Positions 2,471-21,221 of a stretch of DNA of 64,000 nucleotides are shown here, one piece after another. The translations under genes were made by a program, and so were the position numbers. The notes under the pieces were generated by a model, which ran no database searches, was not told the origin of the DNA, and saw nothing but the letters and a program-made list of their open reading frames with translations. The stretch covers positions 22,602 to 86,601 of the IMG/VR virus record IMGVR_UViG_3300006076_000003. One strand, given 5' to 3'. This DNA comes from a virus. Each line of letters starts with the position of its first letter. Position 1 is the first letter of the stretch.

Positions 2471-2494
2471 AATATTATAATCCTACAATTAATA

Positions 2495-2521
2495 TAGCAG
2501 TTTAAAGTCTTGCTTAGGACT
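2495..2521 (-). promoter_or_regulatory. Pseudoknot-type RNA leader, copy D
   Basis: On the minus strand the mRNA would fold as stem AGTC, loop CTAAGCAA, stem GACT, then TTTAAACTGCTA. The loop bases AGCA can pair with the downstream TGCT to make an H-type pseudoknot. The same loop, A-rich linker and downstream segment occur at 7445-7472, 8120-8148 and 8518-8545 with different stems. The element lies between the stop of the 2527-2880 gene and the DUF1737-like gene. Confidence 0.55.
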
Positions 2522-2526
2522 GAGTA

Positions 2527-5212: not shown

Positions 5213-5237
5213 GAGAAAGAGGTTAAACCTCTTCCTC
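5213..5237. terminator. Bidirectional hairpin between convergent genes
   Basis: GAG-AA-AGAGGTTAAACCTCT-TC-CTC folds as a 7-bp stem extended by GAG/CTC. It sits between the stop of the RepA-like gene and the stop of the RNA polymerase gene. There is no long T run in either direction, so efficiency is uncertain. Confidence 0.45.
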
Positions 5238-7324
5238 TATGCTTGCATAAAGTTATCTCCTATAATTAATTTAGTCTCTTGTTTATCAGGTCGTAGACTT
5301 GCGACCTCTTCTGCTGTTAATTTGTCACGGCTCATAGATTTTAATGCCATTAACATTGCTTCCTGCTCCCAAGCATCCAGTAAATCTTGTTTTCCTACTC
5401 GAAGCAATCCTTCCTGAAGCATTCCACATGCCCCATCATTATCGTGTATAAATATTGCTGACCCACCAAGTTCAGCAACATAATCTATTTTAGCTCTAAC
5501 AGCTACAGCATCATCTGCATGTGTTGCATTTGCTAAAGCTCCACTCATTTTAACTTTAGATTCAACATCTTGTTTATCGCCTCTTCCTTTGATTACTGAG
5601 ACTGCTGGCACATATTTACCATTGTTTAAGATAAATAGCAATGGCATATGTCTAACAATACTCATAGACTTTAGGTTGTCATAACCCAACTTTTCATTGA
5701 ACGATCTTCCTTCCTCATCACTTGAGATGTAGAATACCTTAGATTGGTATCCTTCTAAATAAGCAATTGATCTGGCTGGAAAACCATCCCTTGTCATGAT
5801 GTTTAACTCTGAGTACTCATTGTTATAAAATGAGTTCCCTATCTTGTTATACAGGTGGAATAATTCACCTGTATCTCCATATACTTCTTTAACAATCTTG
5901 AGATATACCTCCTCTGTTAGATTTATTTCCTCACTATGTGCTTCTAAGAAGTACTGTTCAGCCTTCTTAACAGCAGATTTAGGTGATACCCCAGCAGTAA
6001 TTGATTGTGATACTGCTTTCTTGATATCATCCCTTGTTGCTGATAGATTTGTTATTTTATTAAATGCTTTAGTAAGCTCCTTGTGTGGATCCATAACTGA
6101 TTTGTAGTCAAGTAGATTACATATTCTTAAAGCTTTACGCTCTTTACTAAGTCCAGCAGCAAACCTTATTGCTCCTGAGTTGGTGTAATCTGTGAACAGG
6201 TATGTTGCATTTGGTGTGCCACTTAAGTAATCATAATATGCTTGTACTACTCGCTTATGATAAAGCTCCTCTAAATAGCCATTAGCCGATTTTAAAAATT
6301 TGCTAATGTTTTTATCAACATCCTTTTCAAACTCTGCTATTGCATTGTTTGGGTTCAACCTTTTAAGAGTTGACATAATTACAAATACAATATATTTGTA
6401 ATCTAACTCATTTAATACTCTAGGCTTAAAACTCTCCCACATATATTTACCTATCTTTGTTTGTGGGTTTAATAAAGGATTTGGTGATGTATAATAAACC
6501 CTTCCCCTGTAATCATATGCTGTCTCTATAAACAAGGGAAAGTTTCCACTTTCTTGTTTATTTTTTAATTCTACCAATGCTTTAATATACCTTTTGTAAT
6601 TTTGTTTTAATTTGTCTAACCTATCTTTGATTAGCAATCTCCTTTCAAGATTGCTGTATTTTCTTGTTTTAGATAAAAATTTGCCTTCTTTAACAGCTAT
6701 ATATTCTTTGCTGGTCAGCAAATATTTATACAGCTTTTTAATCTCTACATCATTTACAAGACGATGTTGCATCTTGTTAGCATTTGCTAAAGTCTTTTTA
6801 GCAGCACTATTAAGTTTACGTGCTGGCATACCTGCTTTACCTGCTACTTTAGTTTTAGGCTTTTGTGGTGAAAATGTTACACCACTAGTAGCATCTTTAA
6901 GAGCTACTTCAATACTAGGGTCCCCAATAAACTTTTCAATCTTTTGGTACTGCTTGTTACGACTTCTATACACTTCAACTCTTTTATTTGGACCTACTTT
7001 CATATAAGCATTTAGCACTGCTGCTGCAATGCTTAACTTTGCATGTTCCCTCCAGTGAGGGTTGAAATCTCCTAAGCCTCTTGAGTTTAGCCTATAAGAC
7101 AGTGCAGCAACTGCGTTATGCAGTTCAGTTTCTCTTAGATTTTCTAAGAAAGATAGGATATCTTTCTTATAGCCTCCTTTGAAAAAGATATCATAGGCAG
7201 CTACCATTGCTGCCCATTTTTCGTCTTTACCTTCTAAAGTCTTTAGAACTTTTAAATCTTCAAGAGATTTTTTGCTTTCTTTTAATTCAATATACACTTT
7301 TCTATAGATTGTTTCAGTTTTCAT
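5237..7324 (-). CDS. Single-subunit T7-like DNA-dependent RNA polymerase
   Basis: A 695-aa polymerase, shorter than the 883 aa of T7. The landmarks are in order: the promoter-side YDYRGRVYYTSPNP block (D271-R275), motif A as FTDYTNSGAIRF with catalytic D379, motif B with R431-x3-K435 (TRDDIKKAVSQS, then ITAG) and motif C as IHDNDG with D628. Motif A reads D-x-T-N-S-G instead of T7's D-G-S-C-S-G, so it belongs to a divergent branch. The family transcribes phage genes from its own short promoters. The ATG at 7324 has TAGGAG ahead of it and a roughly 160-base structured leader (7359-7472). The gene follows two leftward genes with similar leaders. Confidence 0.9.
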   Translation of the reverse strand: MKTETIYRKVYIELKESKKSLEDLKVLKTLEGKDEKWAAMVAAYDIFFKGGYKKDILSFLENLRETELHNAVAALSYRLNSRGLGDFNPHWREHAKLSIAAAVLNAYMKVGPNKRVEVYRSRNKQYQKIEKFIGDPSIEVALKDATSGVTFSPQKPKTKVAGKAGMPARKLNSAAKKTLANANKMQHRLVNDVEIKKLYKYLLTSKEYIAVKEGKFLSKTRKYSNLERRLLIKDRLDKLKQNYKRYIKALVELKNKQESGNFPLFIETAYDYRGRVYYTSPNPLLNPQTKIGKYMWESFKPRVLNELDYKYIVFVIMSTLKRLNPNNAIAEFEKDVDKNISKFLKSANGYLEELYHKRVVQAYYDYLSGTPNATYLFTDYTNSGAIRFAAGLSKERKALRICNLLDYKSVMDPHKELTKAFNKITNLSATRDDIKKAVSQSITAGVSPKSAVKKAEQYFLEAHSEEINLTEEVYLKIVKEVYGDTGELFHLYNKIGNSFYNNEYSELNIMTRDGFPARSIAYLEGYQSKVFYISSDEEGRSFNEKLGYDNLKSMSIVRHMPLLFILNNGKYVPAVSVIKGRGDKQDVESKVKMSGALANATHADDAVAVRAKIDYVAELGGSAIFIHDNDGACGMLQEGLLRVGKQDLLDAWEQEAMLMALKSMSRDKLTAEEVASLRPDKQETKLIIGDNFMQA

Positions 7325-7358
7325 TTTGAACTCCTATAATTAATTTTTTTTTGTTCAA

Positions 7359-7472
7359 CGTACCTTTGTTTAAGCAGTTGGTCTGCTCTTGTTAACTAAC
7401 AACTAACCCACCATTAAGTACTCCATTGAGTACTTAAGGATGAGTGAACAGTTTATAGTCTTGTTCAGGACT
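7359..7472 (-). promoter_or_regulatory. Structured RNA leader of the RNA polymerase gene, copy A
   Basis: On the minus strand: stem AGTC / loop CTGAACAA / GACT (7457-7472); TGTTCA (7445-7450), which can pair with TGAACA of the loop; a perfect 10-bp hairpin TTAAGTACTC-AATG-GAGTACTTAA (7414-7437); the conserved TGGTGGGTTAGTT; hairpin AGCAG-ACCAA-CTGCT (7373-7387); and AAGGTACG (7359-7366). Copy B at 8029-8148 keeps this order with different but complementary stem bases. That is evidence for a functional RNA fold, possibly a translational or processing control of the polymerase. Confidence 0.75.
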
Positions 7473-7488
7473 AAGGCAGATCTTAGAG

Positions 7489-7998
7489 CTATTCAATCCT
7501 AAAATCTACCATGGGAACTTCTAATCCCTTAGCAGCTAATGCTGCTAAGGTTAATATTCCTTCTTTGGCAATCCCCTTCCTTTCATATTCCCTTATTTCA
7601 AGTGTTGTCTCTCTATCAATTATTTGTTGTACAAATTCTCTATATAATAGAGAGACTATTAAGTATTTGGATATATCCTCCTGTATCCTACTATACTTTG
7701 ATTCTACTTTAGTTTGTAGGACTATTTTATCTCTTTTAATCTCTAATAGGGAAATTGATATGTCTGCATACATGTCTTTATTATTAATTCCTGCTTTTGT
7801 GATTCTTTCCTCAGGAGCCTCTGACTCCCAACCAAATACTCTACGTTCTCCTTTTACCCATCCTTTACTTATAAGCCAATACTTAAATGTATGGTTATTC
7901 AAAACTTCAGACATTTCTGCGTACTCTTTGTATGCTTCTCTATTTGCAAGGCCACCTAATTTTTTGTGTCCGTAAAATTCAATTGTTAAAGTTTTCAT
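7489..7998 (-). CDS. Hypothetical protein, 169 aa
   Basis: Starts at 7998 behind AAGGAG and downstream of structured leader copy B. The N-terminal part (MKTLTIEFYGHKKLGGLANR) and NHTFKYWLISKGWVKGERR look like a compact alpha/beta fold. Residues about 85-145 are a long charged helix region (KRDKIVLQTKVESKYSRIQE), followed by a Leu/Ala-rich helix near the C-terminus (ILTLAALAAKGLEVP). No family is recognised. Co-location with the RNA polymerase and sharing of its leader type suggest co-regulation. Confidence 0.7.
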   Translation of the reverse strand: MKTLTIEFYGHKKLGGLANREAYKEYAEMSEVLNNHTFKYWLISKGWVKGERRVFGWESEAPEERITKAGINNKDMYADISISLLEIKRDKIVLQTKVESKYSRIQEDISKYLIVSLLYREFVQQIIDRETTLEIREYERKGIAKEGILTLAALAAKGLEVPMVDFRIE

Positions 7999-8028
7999 AA
8001 TGTTCTCCTTAAATTAATTTATTATGAG

Positions 8029-8148
8029 CGTACCTTTTTAAAAGAGTTGGTCTCTTTTCTATTGAACAATTAAACTAACTACCCACCATTAAACATTCCT
8101 AAGAATGTTTAAAGATAGGTAAGCAGTTTTACAACATGCTTAGGTTGT
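8029..8148 (-). promoter_or_regulatory. Structured RNA leader, copy B
   Basis: Minus strand: stem ACAAC / loop CTAAGCAT / GTTGT (8131-8148); TGCTTA (8120-8125), complementary to TAAGCA in the loop; 10-bp hairpin TTAAACATTC-TTAG-GAATGTTTAA (8089-8112); TGGTGGGTAGTTAGTT; hairpin AAAAGAG-ACCAA-CTCTTTT (8040-8058); then AAGGTACG (8029-8036). Every stem differs from copy A yet remains paired, whereas the single-stranded ACCAA, TGGTGGGT and AAGGTACG are unchanged. Confidence 0.75.
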
Positions 8149-8153
8149 TGTTT

Positions 8154-8495
8154 TTATTTTTGTTTTTCAATCTCCTTTTTTAATTTTGCTAGTTTAAGCT
8201 CTCTTCTGAGAGCTTCCTCTTCCTCACGAGCTGTCTTCTCTTCTTCGCTCTCCTCTAACAGAGTAGAGAACCACTCTGCTGAGTTTTTAATATGTGTTGG
8301 TGTATTACCAACAAACTCAATTGTTCTATAAGTAGCCTCTGCAGTCAATGCTGCAGTTTTAGAAATTGACGCAGTAGAGTAAACTACCGCATCGTTTAAG
8401 TCAGCTAAAGGAGTTAATCCTTTATCTGCACAATTAGACTCTACTGAGTCAACTAAATCTTCAATAAACCATTTTGCTTTTGTGAATACTTTCAT
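8154..8495 (-). CDS. Hypothetical helical protein, 113 aa
   Basis: AAAGGAG before the ATG at 8495 sets the start (MKVFTKAKWFIEDLVDSVES). The protein has an Ala/Thr/Ser-rich middle (VVYSTASISKTAALTAEATY) and a C-terminal highly charged helix from about residue 80 (EESEEEKTAREEEEALRREL), probably a coiled coil. The frame is open upstream to a GTG at 8666 through a C9 run (minus strand), which would add a hydrophobic N-terminus; I regard that as unlikely without a ribosome binding site. Function unknown. Confidence 0.7.
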   Translation of the reverse strand: MKVFTKAKWFIEDLVDSVESNCADKGLTPLADLNDAVVYSTASISKTAALTAEATYRTIEFVGNTPTHIKNSAEWFSTLLEESEEEKTAREEEEALRRELKLAKLKKEIEKQK

Positions 8496-8514: not shown

Positions 8515-8582
8515 ATTAGCAGTTTTACTACTTGCTTAGGTAAAATTAGGTACTTCAACCACCATAGGGGGGGGGTATCCCC
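8515..8582 (-). promoter_or_regulatory. Pseudoknot-type RNA leader, copy C, with G9 tract
   Basis: Minus strand, reading toward the gene: hairpin GGGG-ATA-CCCC (8572-8582) within a C9 run, TATGGTGGTTGAAGTACC, then stem TTTTAC / loop CTAAGCAAGTA / GTAAAA (8523-8545) and CTGCTAA (8516-8522), whose GCT can pair with AGC in the loop. The loop and TGGTGG segment recall copies A and B, but the order of parts differs and the stem sits right before the ribosome binding site. Confidence 0.5.
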
Positions 8583-14385: not shown

Positions 14386-17300
14386 ATGGGATTTGTTCGT
14401 AAGCCAATTTATGAGTTTAAAGATGAAACAAGCACAGGTTTAGATAAAGTACCAAATGGTAGTAAAGTTGTACTTAAAGACAGTGGTAAAGAATTTATTA
14501 AAAATGATGTTAATAAAATAATTACACCTTCACATACTGTTGCTGAAGTACTGTATGGATCATCTACAAAAGATTTATTATTTAATGAACAGTATAACAA
14601 ATTAAAAGAATTTGTAAGTGCTAATTATAACGGTATAAGTGGATTTGTTGATAAAGAGGTAGATTTAGAAATTAGTGAAACAAATGCAATAGTGGGGTTA
14701 AAAAATAGATTTGCTAAATTTGGTGATGAGATTGTTGATTTGTATGGACCAGAGTTGGTTACTAATGGTGACTTTAGTGATGGACCTACTGGATGGACTT
14801 TACCTGAAAATGTTATATTGGATAATGAAAAATTATATGTCTATAACGCTGCACATGGTGCTAATATTGACAGTACTGCTCAACTAATTGCCGGAAAAAC
14901 TTATCTCGTTAAGTTCAATCTCCTTAATATAACGGGCGGTGGTATTACTTTTTATACATATGGTGGTGCATCTGACAAACAAGGGACAAAGTATTCTTCT
15001 GAAGGTGAAATTGAGATTATTTGTAATGTTACGCAATCTGGAACTTTAAGATTGCAAGTTGATGCTGTTAATTTTGGTACTCCTAATATGTATTTGGATA
15101 AAGTTTCAGTCCGTGAAATTAAATCAATAGACCTAACACCCCAAATTCCAGAAGTTCAAACTATTGGTTCTACATCATTAACAGTAACTAATTCTACAAT
15201 TTCTCACCATCCAGTTAGACAAGTAGATACTATATCTGCTATTGATGTGCAAGATAGTACTGATTATACAGTTACAATTGCTGGAACTGATTACACATAT
15301 ACAAGTGACTCAGATGCTACATTAACTGAAATTCAAGATGGAATTATAGCTGCTTTACCAAGTTCTTGTACGGGTTCAGTAAGTGGAGATGATGTAGTTG
15401 TAAGTGCGGCAACAGTTTGTGATGGGTATGATATTTCAGTTTCTTCAAATATGACACTAACTAATACAACTGCAAATGTTGATTGTATTAATGTTGACTC
15501 AGTTGTTGGAACTAATGCTATTATACCTGCACACAACAACGGACACCAAACTAAAATTATTGCAAGAGTTAAATCTTCAACCAATGGTATGGAAGTACAG
15601 ATTTTAGATAAGTCTGATAGTAACAATGTTATTAGAACACAATCATTAGATGCTTTTGAAAATGATAAAACATTAACATTTTGGGTACCAAGTAATGCTG
15701 ATGGTTATGAAGTTAAAGCTATTAAAAGAGTTAATGACGGTGCTGGAGATGAAAGTGTTGTAGTTAGTGCTTTTGGCTTTGAAGATTTAGTTACTACTGA
15801 TTTAGTAGAGTCTGGAGATTATGCTGTAATTGATAAAGAAGAATTAGTTGTTAACGGAACTTTTGATGTTAATGTTGATGGATGGACTATAGTAGGAGAA
15901 AATTGTTCTTTTTCACAAGAGAATGGAAAAGCTAAAGTAGTTGTAGGTTCAGAGGGAGATGGGGATTATAATGGTTTTAAAGGTATATTCTCTGTAAAAG
16001 AAAATACAAAATACCTTATAAAAATTAGTTGCGAGACTAATAAAGAAATCTATACACATATAAGGTTTTTTAATGATGATGGTGCTACGGTTTCACCAGA
16101 TGCTTCTTTTATACCTACAATAACTGAAAATGCTGTTTTACAAAAGACTATTATTATACCTAGTGGTGCTACTAAGATAAGGATACAACCACAAACAAAT
16201 CATAGTTATGATTTTACTTTTTATATTGACAACATCTCCGTAACACCAGTCAACGACATTTTTAGAGCAACAGAAGATATTCCAGCTGGTACATCAGTTT
16301 ATGACAGTAGATTTGAGACAAGAGAATACATCAGTAACCAAAACTTAGTTACTCTTAAAAAAGAAAACAATGTTGTATCAATGCACAGTGAAGTATTGTT
16401 TGAAGACGCTTATCCAGAAACTACACAAAAACAAATGATGTTAGCTAATGGTTTTGTTGAGAAAGAAGTTGGTTTATACACTAAAGATGGTGCTGAACAC
16501 TTGGTTGTTGGGTTGTGGCAAGGATTGAATAAAGGTGCTTATCACGAAATCTTTAATAAATTTGGCACTGTACTTAGTGCAAGAGTTATAAATAATTTAG
16601 TAGCTTCAAGAGAAAATTGGTACAGTAGTTATATACCAACTTTTAACAGTATTAAAGATACATTTGGACCTATTAAAGTTTGGCATAATATAGCTAACCC
16701 AACTATTAATTATAGATGGAAGGATACCTATTTAACTGGTTCAATACTAAATGGATTAAGTGGTAGACCAGACGCAAAATTCTACGACGTAGTTTACAAA
16801 AACGACTTCATAAAAAAATTTAATAGCATTCAACCTGATACAGTACAAGATAAACAAAAACGTAGTAATGCGATTAAGAATGGTACTTATGAAGGTGTTA
16901 GTGGGTTAGTTAGTACAACTCAAATTATACTTAATTTAATGTCAAGTGGTATAGATTCTAATAATAATTATTGGTATTTTGATGATATGCTTAATGATAT
17001 AAATTATAAATTAGATATATCTATACCTGATACATCAAGTTCAAAATATTTATCCTCTTATTTATCAGTAAAGGAACGTGTATTTGTATTAATAAATGAT
17101 TCTGTCTATACTGATATACGATTTTATAATAAAGTTATGTATATAGATTGTGACAGTACCGCAACTGAAAATCAAAAAGTAACTATATTATATACAAACG
17201 AACTTCCAATTCTCTCAACAACCTCACACCTAACAACAGACTTAATAGGTGACCCTTCACCTTTCTCAGCTACAAGTGGAATAGATATTGTTTTAACAGG

Positions 17301-20947: not shown

Positions 20948-21221
20948 TTATGATGCTTTATTCTACATAGGAAGTTCTGTTATTACTTTGGTAATGGCAG
21001 CTACCTATGTAAAATTCAAACAGCAAGATTTAGACGAAAAAGTTAAACAAAATTCTAAGAACTTAGCAGAGTTAACAACCTTTATGCAAAATAAAAGACC
21101 TATGTTAGACCATTTTAACAAGATAGAAAATGCTTTTGGTAAAAAGATTGATGAACATTCTAATGGAATAACAACTCTCAAAGAAAAAATATCCCAAACA
21201 ATATCTTACAAAGAAGTCTAA
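20931..21221 (+). CDS. Membrane-anchored coiled-coil protein, 96 aa, ended by an in-frame UAA
   Basis: One N-terminal membrane segment (ALFYIGSSVITLVMAATYV) followed by a long coiled coil, the layout of an inner-membrane spanin or a similar envelope protein. The stop at 21219-21221 is followed in the same frame by 37 more sense codons (EDFVKRNELQLHLEKIEVEY...) that continue the coiled coil up to a second stop at 21333. The tail looks ancestral, so the gene may be truncated or read through. Confidence 0.65.
   Translation: MEQTLSYDALFYIGSSVITLVMAATYVKFKQQDLDEKVKQNSKNLAELTTFMQNKRPMLDHFNKIENAFGKKIDEHSNGITTLKEKISQTISYKEV

Follow-up and report, generated by a model that had tools for sequence, protein, structure and literature searches.

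A 28-nt pseudoknot located behind stop codons in many phages: a candidate 3'-end element of phage messages

Introduction

Protectors of mRNA 3' ends, among them REP/BIME elements, the RNase III hairpins of phage T7, and the stems of terminators, are hairpins. Known pseudoknotted RNAs include the exonuclease-resistant RNAs (xrRNAs) of RNA viruses, which stop 5'-to-3' enzymes by a ring fold (PMC12191101); the gene 32 pseudoknot of phage T4, which a review of T4 regards as perhaps the sole viral pseudoknot with a known part in translational autoregulation (PMC3014915); and STAXI RNA, which has two to three repeats and frequent UUCG loops (Weinberg 2010; PMC2864571). Here we describe a short H-type pseudoknot first seen as two copies, A and B, in a 64,000-nucleotide stretch of viral DNA (the window; positions 22602-86601 of the 86.6-kb IMG/VR virus record IMGVR_UViG_3300006076_000003), in which they lie on the minus strand ahead of the gene for a single-subunit RNA polymerase and that of its neighbor. 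Hundreds of phage contigs carry the same pseudoknot, as do cultured isolates, and we compare it below with the systems just named.

Results

Fold and covariation of the pseudoknot

The window contains four copies:

7445-7473, minus strand: copy A pseudoknot; stem 1 (T)AGTC/GACT(A), loop 1 C, stem 2 TGAACA/TGTTCA, loop 3 (A)TAAAC
8120-8148, minus strand: copy B pseudoknot; stem 1 (A)CAAC/GTTG(T), loop 1 C, stem 2 TAAGCA/TGCTTA, loop 3 (T)AAAAC
8516-8544, minus strand: copy C; same loops, stem 2 weaker (A-A mismatch), no open reading frame (ORF) upstream
2494-2522, minus strand: copy D; stem 1 AGTC/GACT, loop 1 C, stem 2 TAAGCA/TGCTAT (four pairs)

Read out in order, copy A is TAGTC-C-TGAACA-A-GACTA-TAAAC-TGTTCA and copy B is ACAAC-C-TAAGCA-T-GTTGT-AAAAC-TGCTTA. 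The consensus of the family, NNNC-C-TRRRYA-N-GNNN-NWAAAC-TRYYYA, describes a 28-nt H-type pseudoknot with a stem 1 of 4 bp (counted as such because its outermost pair is not conserved), a one-base loop C, a stem 2 of 6 bp, and an A-rich loop 3 ending in AAAC. Pseudoknots defined by architecture alone were common by chance, with 20 in the window relative to about 16 expected, and therefore the case rests on the identical loops in all copies and on recurrence in other phages. Reversed sequence is uninformative as a control for such an architecture-only scan, since the complement keeps the pairing; the loop-constrained controls given below are unaffected. When loops C and WAAAC were fixed and the sequence of both stems was left free, 145 pseudoknots were found in 1.16 Mb of fetched contigs versus 1 in reversed sequence, and about 50 of the 145 had not been seeded by the search pattern, other stem 2 pairs being TGAGCA/TGCTCA, TGGGTA/TACCCA, TGGTCA/TGACCT, and TGAATA/TATTCA.

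Each stem was assayed in copies that had been picked through the other. With the pattern CCTAAGCANNNNNNWAAACTGCT, which leaves stem 1 free save for one base, stem 1 paired at four or five of five positions in 99 of 125 sites among the matches listed, and in copies picked via stem 2 and the loops, four or five of the five tested pairs were present in 243 of 295. Among unseeded copies picked via stem 1 and the loops, stem 2 showed five or six of six pairs in 26 of 41, as compared with 0 of 6 in reversed sequence. A set of 32 diverse copies had 96.3% of cells paired and 69 cells changed on both sides, and its covariation score was 0.635 relative to 0.228 for shuffled and at most 0.11 for slid alignments. 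The six top corrected mutual-information values among 406 position pairs (274 distinct cores) were all stem pairs, a result that is supportive only, because this set was pre-filtered on pairing. These results demonstrated two interleaved helices, each with compensatory change, as expected of an H-type pseudoknot; the initial annotation, which had proposed a selected RNA fold from the copies in the window, was thus borne out far beyond this phage.

Loops C and WAAAC were nearly invariant. Across the 274 cores, the first base of loop 3 tracked one pair of stem 1, with U accompanying G-C or C-G in 142 of 177 cases and A accompanying A-U or U-A in 82 of 95. This dependence looks like a tertiary contact and suggests a base triple, although the base composition of lineages might also produce it. 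The two loops might instead be the contacts of a phage or host RNase or an RNA-binding protein, for which the element would serve as a binding or cleavage site that cuts polycistronic RNA between genes. Near-invariance of the loops is what such a site would call for, the link between loop 3 and stem 1 shows a defined three-dimensional surface, and an RNase III-like hairpin adjoins the pseudoknot in copies A and B. However, no shared partner gene was identified, the hosts belong to several phyla, and minor-groove contacts inside the pseudoknot could equally explain the conservation; we consider a protein site distinctly unlikely.

Position relative to stop codons, starts, and tRNAs

A same-strand stop codon was present within 60 nt upstream of 218 of the 274 usable viral copies, relative to 17% of random positions. 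The distance from stop codon to stem 1 had its mode at exactly 5 nt (58 copies) and was never less than 4 nt; it fell between 3 and 9 nt for 52% of copies and 2% of random positions. With one copy retained for each of 94 clusters, the mode was still 5 nt (31 of 94). Only 5 copies lay within a same-strand ORF of at least 150 codons. The stop codons upstream of copies A, B, and D belong to the following genes:

7489-7998, minus strand: 169-amino-acid gene of unknown function between copies B and A; copy A sits 15 nt after its stop
8154-8495, minus strand: 113-amino-acid gene of unknown function, the first of its operon; copy B sits 5 nt after its TAA
2527-2880, minus strand: 117-amino-acid gene; its stop codon (TAA, 2529-2527) anchors copy D, 4 nt further on

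Copy C lies 20 nt ahead of the ATG at 8495. The initial annotation had regarded A and B as leaders of the RNA polymerase gene and its neighbor, and a 5' leader could control translation of the downstream gene or protect the 5' end of the downstream mRNA. Several features agree with this: with gene starts called by simple rules, the distance from the pseudoknot to the downstream ATG had its mode at 20-25 nt; no gene lies upstream of copy C; and A and B, whose additional hairpins reach the ribosome-binding site, remain alike into the first codons. Long gaps separate a leader from an element of the upstream gene. Where the gap measured 110 nt or more, the element was within 20 nt of the stop codon and far from the start in 60-64 cases and near the start alone in 11-12, a preference of about 5 to 1 indicating that the element belongs to the end of the upstream gene. 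The orientation of neighboring genes also spoke against a leader: 222 copies had co-directional genes on both sides, 15 preceded a convergent gene, 7 had a divergent upstream gene, and 2 had both, so that a divergent upstream neighbor was present in only 9 copies, as compared with a base rate of 10% for divergent pairs. In 25 cases (for example, L182 and L056) a tRNA, mostly tRNA-Asp, began 3-13 nt downstream, with the stop codon mostly 5-18 nt upstream. We concluded that a leader role is improbable and, for the pseudoknot, unsupported across phages; the element is a 3' untranslated region (3'-UTR) or intercistronic element, placed as a 3'-end stabilizer should be, just behind the stop codon and with a fold independent of the downstream gene. 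The predominance of tRNA-Asp could stem from a single phage lineage or could be a true association.

Sequence beyond the pseudoknot contained in general no further conserved domain (in 74 long gaps, the mean z was −1.1 versus −0.7 for the control). One phage group (L113, L096, L083, L058, L042, and L233) has at this place a GC-rich stretch with TTATCCACA-like sequences, which resemble DnaA boxes.

The main rival to the reading developed in the Discussion is a ribosome-facing insulator, the protein site being the next: a pseudoknot at the front edge of the terminating ribosome would bar it from sliding, re-initiating, or invading the next cistron or tRNA. The leading edge of a ribosome meets downstream structure at about the distance given by the 5-nt mode and the 4-nt minimum, and copies lie before tRNAs and between head-portal genes and the highly expressed scaffold or capsid genes. 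Distances of up to 20 nt or more are tolerated, however, and the copies in front of convergent genes have no downstream cistron to insulate; we regard an insulator of this kind as unlikely. The spacing is also typical of recoding signals, for which H-type pseudoknots can serve, so that stop-codon readthrough or frameshifting was considered as well. Past the stop codon, the three reading frames stayed open for a median of only 8, 8, and 3 codons. Nor was a slippery heptamer present at the stop codon, and the element also lies between tRNA genes. With neither a slippery site nor a readthrough context joined to a long alternative frame, a programmed frameshift or readthrough pseudoknot is largely refuted, and recoding appears extremely improbable.

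Distribution among phages and hosts

A scan of viral_contigs with the CCTAAGCANNNNNNWAAACTGCT core matched at least 120 contigs, as did a second scan with the TGAGCA variant; prevalence in these scans is a lower bound, and many of the contigs are related, with 94 sequence clusters remaining. Bacterial and archaeal genomes (257 Gb) yielded only 25 contigs with a stricter pattern. Ten flanking proteins from these were tested and two proved to be phage head proteins (minor head and scaffold), showing that some of these matches are prophages. Cultured carriers were found by short BLAST searches with idealized elements, and for most of them the sequence was read and the fold checked. Their hosts are cyanobacteria, Staphylococcus, Streptococcus, Lactobacillus, Geobacillus, Moorella, Mycobacterium, Arthrobacter, the Roseobacter group, and Moraxella. 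The element occupies gaps in the cyanobacterial phages Microcystis LMM01, Planktothrix PaV-LD, Acaryochloris A-HIS1, S-RIM4, S-EIV1, and Nostoc NMeng1; in Moraxella Mcat phages, Roseobacter CRP-6, Lentibacter ICBM2, and Paracoccus ParMal1; in Lactobacillus Lj965 and phiEF-1.1, Streptococcus Javan271, and Staphylococcus phietaviruses; and in the deep-sea thermophilic phage D6E, Moorella MTATph1, Mycobacterium Labelle, and Arthrobacter Molivia. The neighboring genes belong to many families. In CRP-6 the ribonucleotide reductase gene stops at 14530, the element follows at about 14536, and glutaredoxin is at 14576; in B166 the head-morphogenesis gene stops at 21032, the element is at about 21042, and the next gene, at 21128, is followed by the capsid gene; in Lj965 the order is minor head stop, element, scaffold; and in Molivia it is SSB stop, element, tRNA-Gly. 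One Staphylococcus record annotates the spot as a software-predicted promoter. The element was absent from Alteromonas phage PT11-V19 (11 kb around its polymerase gene), N4 (first 50 kb), and T7.

Several known kinds of element were compared with these copies. An intrinsic terminator is rejected, because no U run stands behind the element and a real terminator comes next in just 4 of 194 cases. An N4-type hairpin promoter is rejected as well, since both pseudoknot stems show covariation and the element is found beside tRNAs and in phages that are not related to N4. Phages can escape ToxIN, and the element might act as a decoy, mimicking the ToxI RNA of type III systems against host toxins of the ToxN/AbiQ type. 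ToxI is likewise a short H-type pseudoknot with A-rich single strands. ToxIN is a phage defense (PMC3997798). The element is, however, usually present in single copies rather than tandem repeats (four close pairs), is tied to stop codons, and has no Rfam match; neighboring toxin genes were not searched for systematically, and on the evidence of the matches and spacing an antitoxin-like RNA is very improbable.

The initial annotation had not recognized a known riboswitch, and this holds as far as Rfam 15 reaches: no family reached its gathering threshold in the window, nor did any at the element in 22 other loci, where only tRNAs were found, and a permissive search of 8 more loci gave nothing at the element. 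Nor did the open PMC literature, searched by sequence and by topic, contain a description of it, most subscription papers being outside reach.

Hairpins of copies A and B and the surrounding genes

In copies A and B the pseudoknot is followed by additional parts:

7406-7445, minus strand: copy A 17-bp hairpin, ACTCATC-C-TTAAGTACTC / GAGTACTTAA-T-GGTGGGT; includes TGGTGGGT
7372-7388, minus strand: copy A hairpin with ACCAA loop
7359-7367, minus strand: copy A AAAGGTACG, common to A and B
8081-8120, minus strand: copy B 17-bp hairpin
8040-8058, minus strand: copy B hairpin with ACCAA loop
8029-8037, minus strand: copy B AAAGGTACG

The order of parts first proposed for the minus strand was confirmed for both A (pseudoknot 7473-7445, hairpins to 7359) and B (8148-8120, to 8029), and so were the compensatory changes: of 26 aligned pairs in four helices, 15 were unchanged and 11 had changed on both sides yet remained paired, with none changed on one side only and none broken. 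The hairpin block was more stable than shuffled sequences (z −4.7 for A and −4.1 for B). One part required revision. What had been read as a 10-bp hairpin and a separate TGGTGGGT is a single hairpin of 17 bp with one internal mismatch, for TGGTGGGT is not single-stranded; its GGTGGGT pairs with ACTCATC in A and ACCTATC in B. We infer from its shape that the 17-bp hairpin of copy A is RNase III-like. Exact copies of AAAGGTACG in the window are limited to these two, and an exact-pattern search of viral_contigs for the hairpin block gave no match; the extra hairpins, found nowhere else, may be leader parts specific to this phage. A and B remain alike past the ribosome-binding site and into the opening codons of two genes that are not related to each other (7308-7349 and 7982-8023; 79% identity over 42 nt), as if leader and start region had been duplicated.

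The minus-strand operon has the order 113-amino-acid gene, B, 169-amino-acid gene, A, RNA polymerase, the last being:

5237-7324, minus strand: single-subunit RNA polymerase of 695 amino acids; PHROG 2051/414; 27% identity to the PT11-V19 enzyme

This polymerase (5237-7324) appears to unite the two N4 subunits (269 and 404 amino acids in the N4 annotation), and that of PT11-V19 is likewise fused. No relative of it was found in viral_contigs. The terminase shares 55-71% identity with those of a few metagenomic contigs and about 33% with terminases of Schitoviridae (N4-like); its relatives are without the leaders. In three related phages (window 8580-8563, minus strand; metagenomic relative L003 3460-3449, minus strand; PT11-V19 L006 2034-2042, plus strand), the first early genes are preceded by a short motif, G/A-TACCCCCC, which may be an early promoter element. 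An intergenic region of the window at about 3960-3745 contains about six near-identical TTTGACCACGAAA repeats, iteron- or operator-like in character.

Discussion

We propose that the pseudoknot is a compact, protein-independent roadblock that protects the upstream message from 3'-to-5' decay, a mechanism to which we assign slightly less than an even chance. Decay or processing of mRNA, one of the roles suggested initially, thus remains the best guess; blocking of exonucleases, processing, and any effect on expression are all inferred. When a stop codon occupies the A site, about 5 nt separate it from the mRNA entry of the ribosome, and the favored spacing is therefore the closest at which the fold survives termination. 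A pseudoknot just outside the terminating ribosome could persist while the gene is being translated, which implies that something depends on the RNA staying folded directly behind the translated gene. If the message were then cut or terminated downstream, the pseudoknot would halt 3'-to-5' exonucleases before they reached the coding sequence upstream, and the lifetimes of neighboring cistrons, or of mRNA and tRNA, could differ. For A and B of this phage, we conjecture that the 17-bp hairpin could be a cut site of the RNase III type and that the ACCAA hairpin would then form the new 5' end of the mRNA that follows.

An exonuclease block is the most economical explanation, because 3'-to-5' exonucleases exist in all the hosts concerned and because, at a tRNA, RNase P cleavage would make the pseudoknot the exact 3' terminus of the mRNA. 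The hosts are so different that a host-specific binding factor is unlikely. We also count in favor of a roadblock the copies that precede convergent genes, tRNAs, and, in a few cases, intrinsic terminators. Three observations weigh on the other side. A simple roadblock would hardly seem to require loops as conserved as C and WAAAC, so that there could be a protein partner; an upstream gene is missing from copy C and from a minority of the others (9 with a divergent upstream neighbor); and most copies have co-directional genes on both sides and may thus also affect the downstream one. In its broadest form, the proposal is that the stop-codon pseudoknot is a universal phage RNA part, a 28-nt cassette that insulates cistrons and tRNAs in any host and is present in phages of bacteria from at least four phyla. 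It would work through machinery shared by all bacteria, namely, the terminating ribosome, 3'-to-5' exonucleases, or both; we hold this view tentatively, at somewhat less than an even chance.

The element would rank among the most widespread phage RNA elements and would help to explain unequal expression of adjacent genes on one phage transcript. Through its fixed spacing, a connection of translation termination with mRNA processing or decay in phages can be tested directly. The element is usable in annotation pipelines at once and might be a portable insulator for synthetic operons.

How does the element compare with known systems? The closest in form is the pseudoknot in the gene 32 mRNA of T4 and T2, through which gp32 is autoregulated; it too is a short H-type pseudoknot in a phage mRNA, with a one-base loop 1 and coaxial stems. 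In the T4 sequence, however, loop 1 is A, stem 2 has 7 bp, loop 2 and WAAAC are lacking, and the SegG stop codon lies inside the fold. Moreover, the T4 fold serves a single protein as a 5' operator, 67 nt ahead of the start codon (PMC3014915), whereas the new element is a multi-copy 3'-UTR element of many phages. We rejected a gene 32-type autoregulatory pseudoknot because loops and stem lengths differ and the neighboring genes are of many families. Viral xrRNAs are likewise compact pseudoknotted RNAs, and like them the element may block an exonuclease, but it is a plain H-type pseudoknot of DNA phages and the direction is probably 3'-to-5'. STAXI is also a pseudoknot motif of unknown function near DNA-handling genes; the new element has no Rfam match. 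Freshwater-2 RNA (RF02980) matched copy C weakly, across the hairpin and ribosome-binding site (22 bits versus a threshold of 49.9; E = 1.2), and did not match the other copies. The element shares with REP/BIME elements, T7 RNase III hairpins, and terminators an intercistronic or 3' location and a proposed block of 3'-to-5' decay; those protectors are hairpins, whereas this is a sequence-constrained pseudoknot with a 5-nt spacing from the stop codon, in phages from hosts of several phyla. The pseudoknot thus appears to be an RNA family new to Rfam and, apparently, to the open literature searched. Its fold is the classical H-type and its probable function resembles that of known intercistronic stabilizers; what appears to be new is the family, its breadth, and its anchoring to stop codons, and the novelty could be categorical if the mechanism proves to be new.
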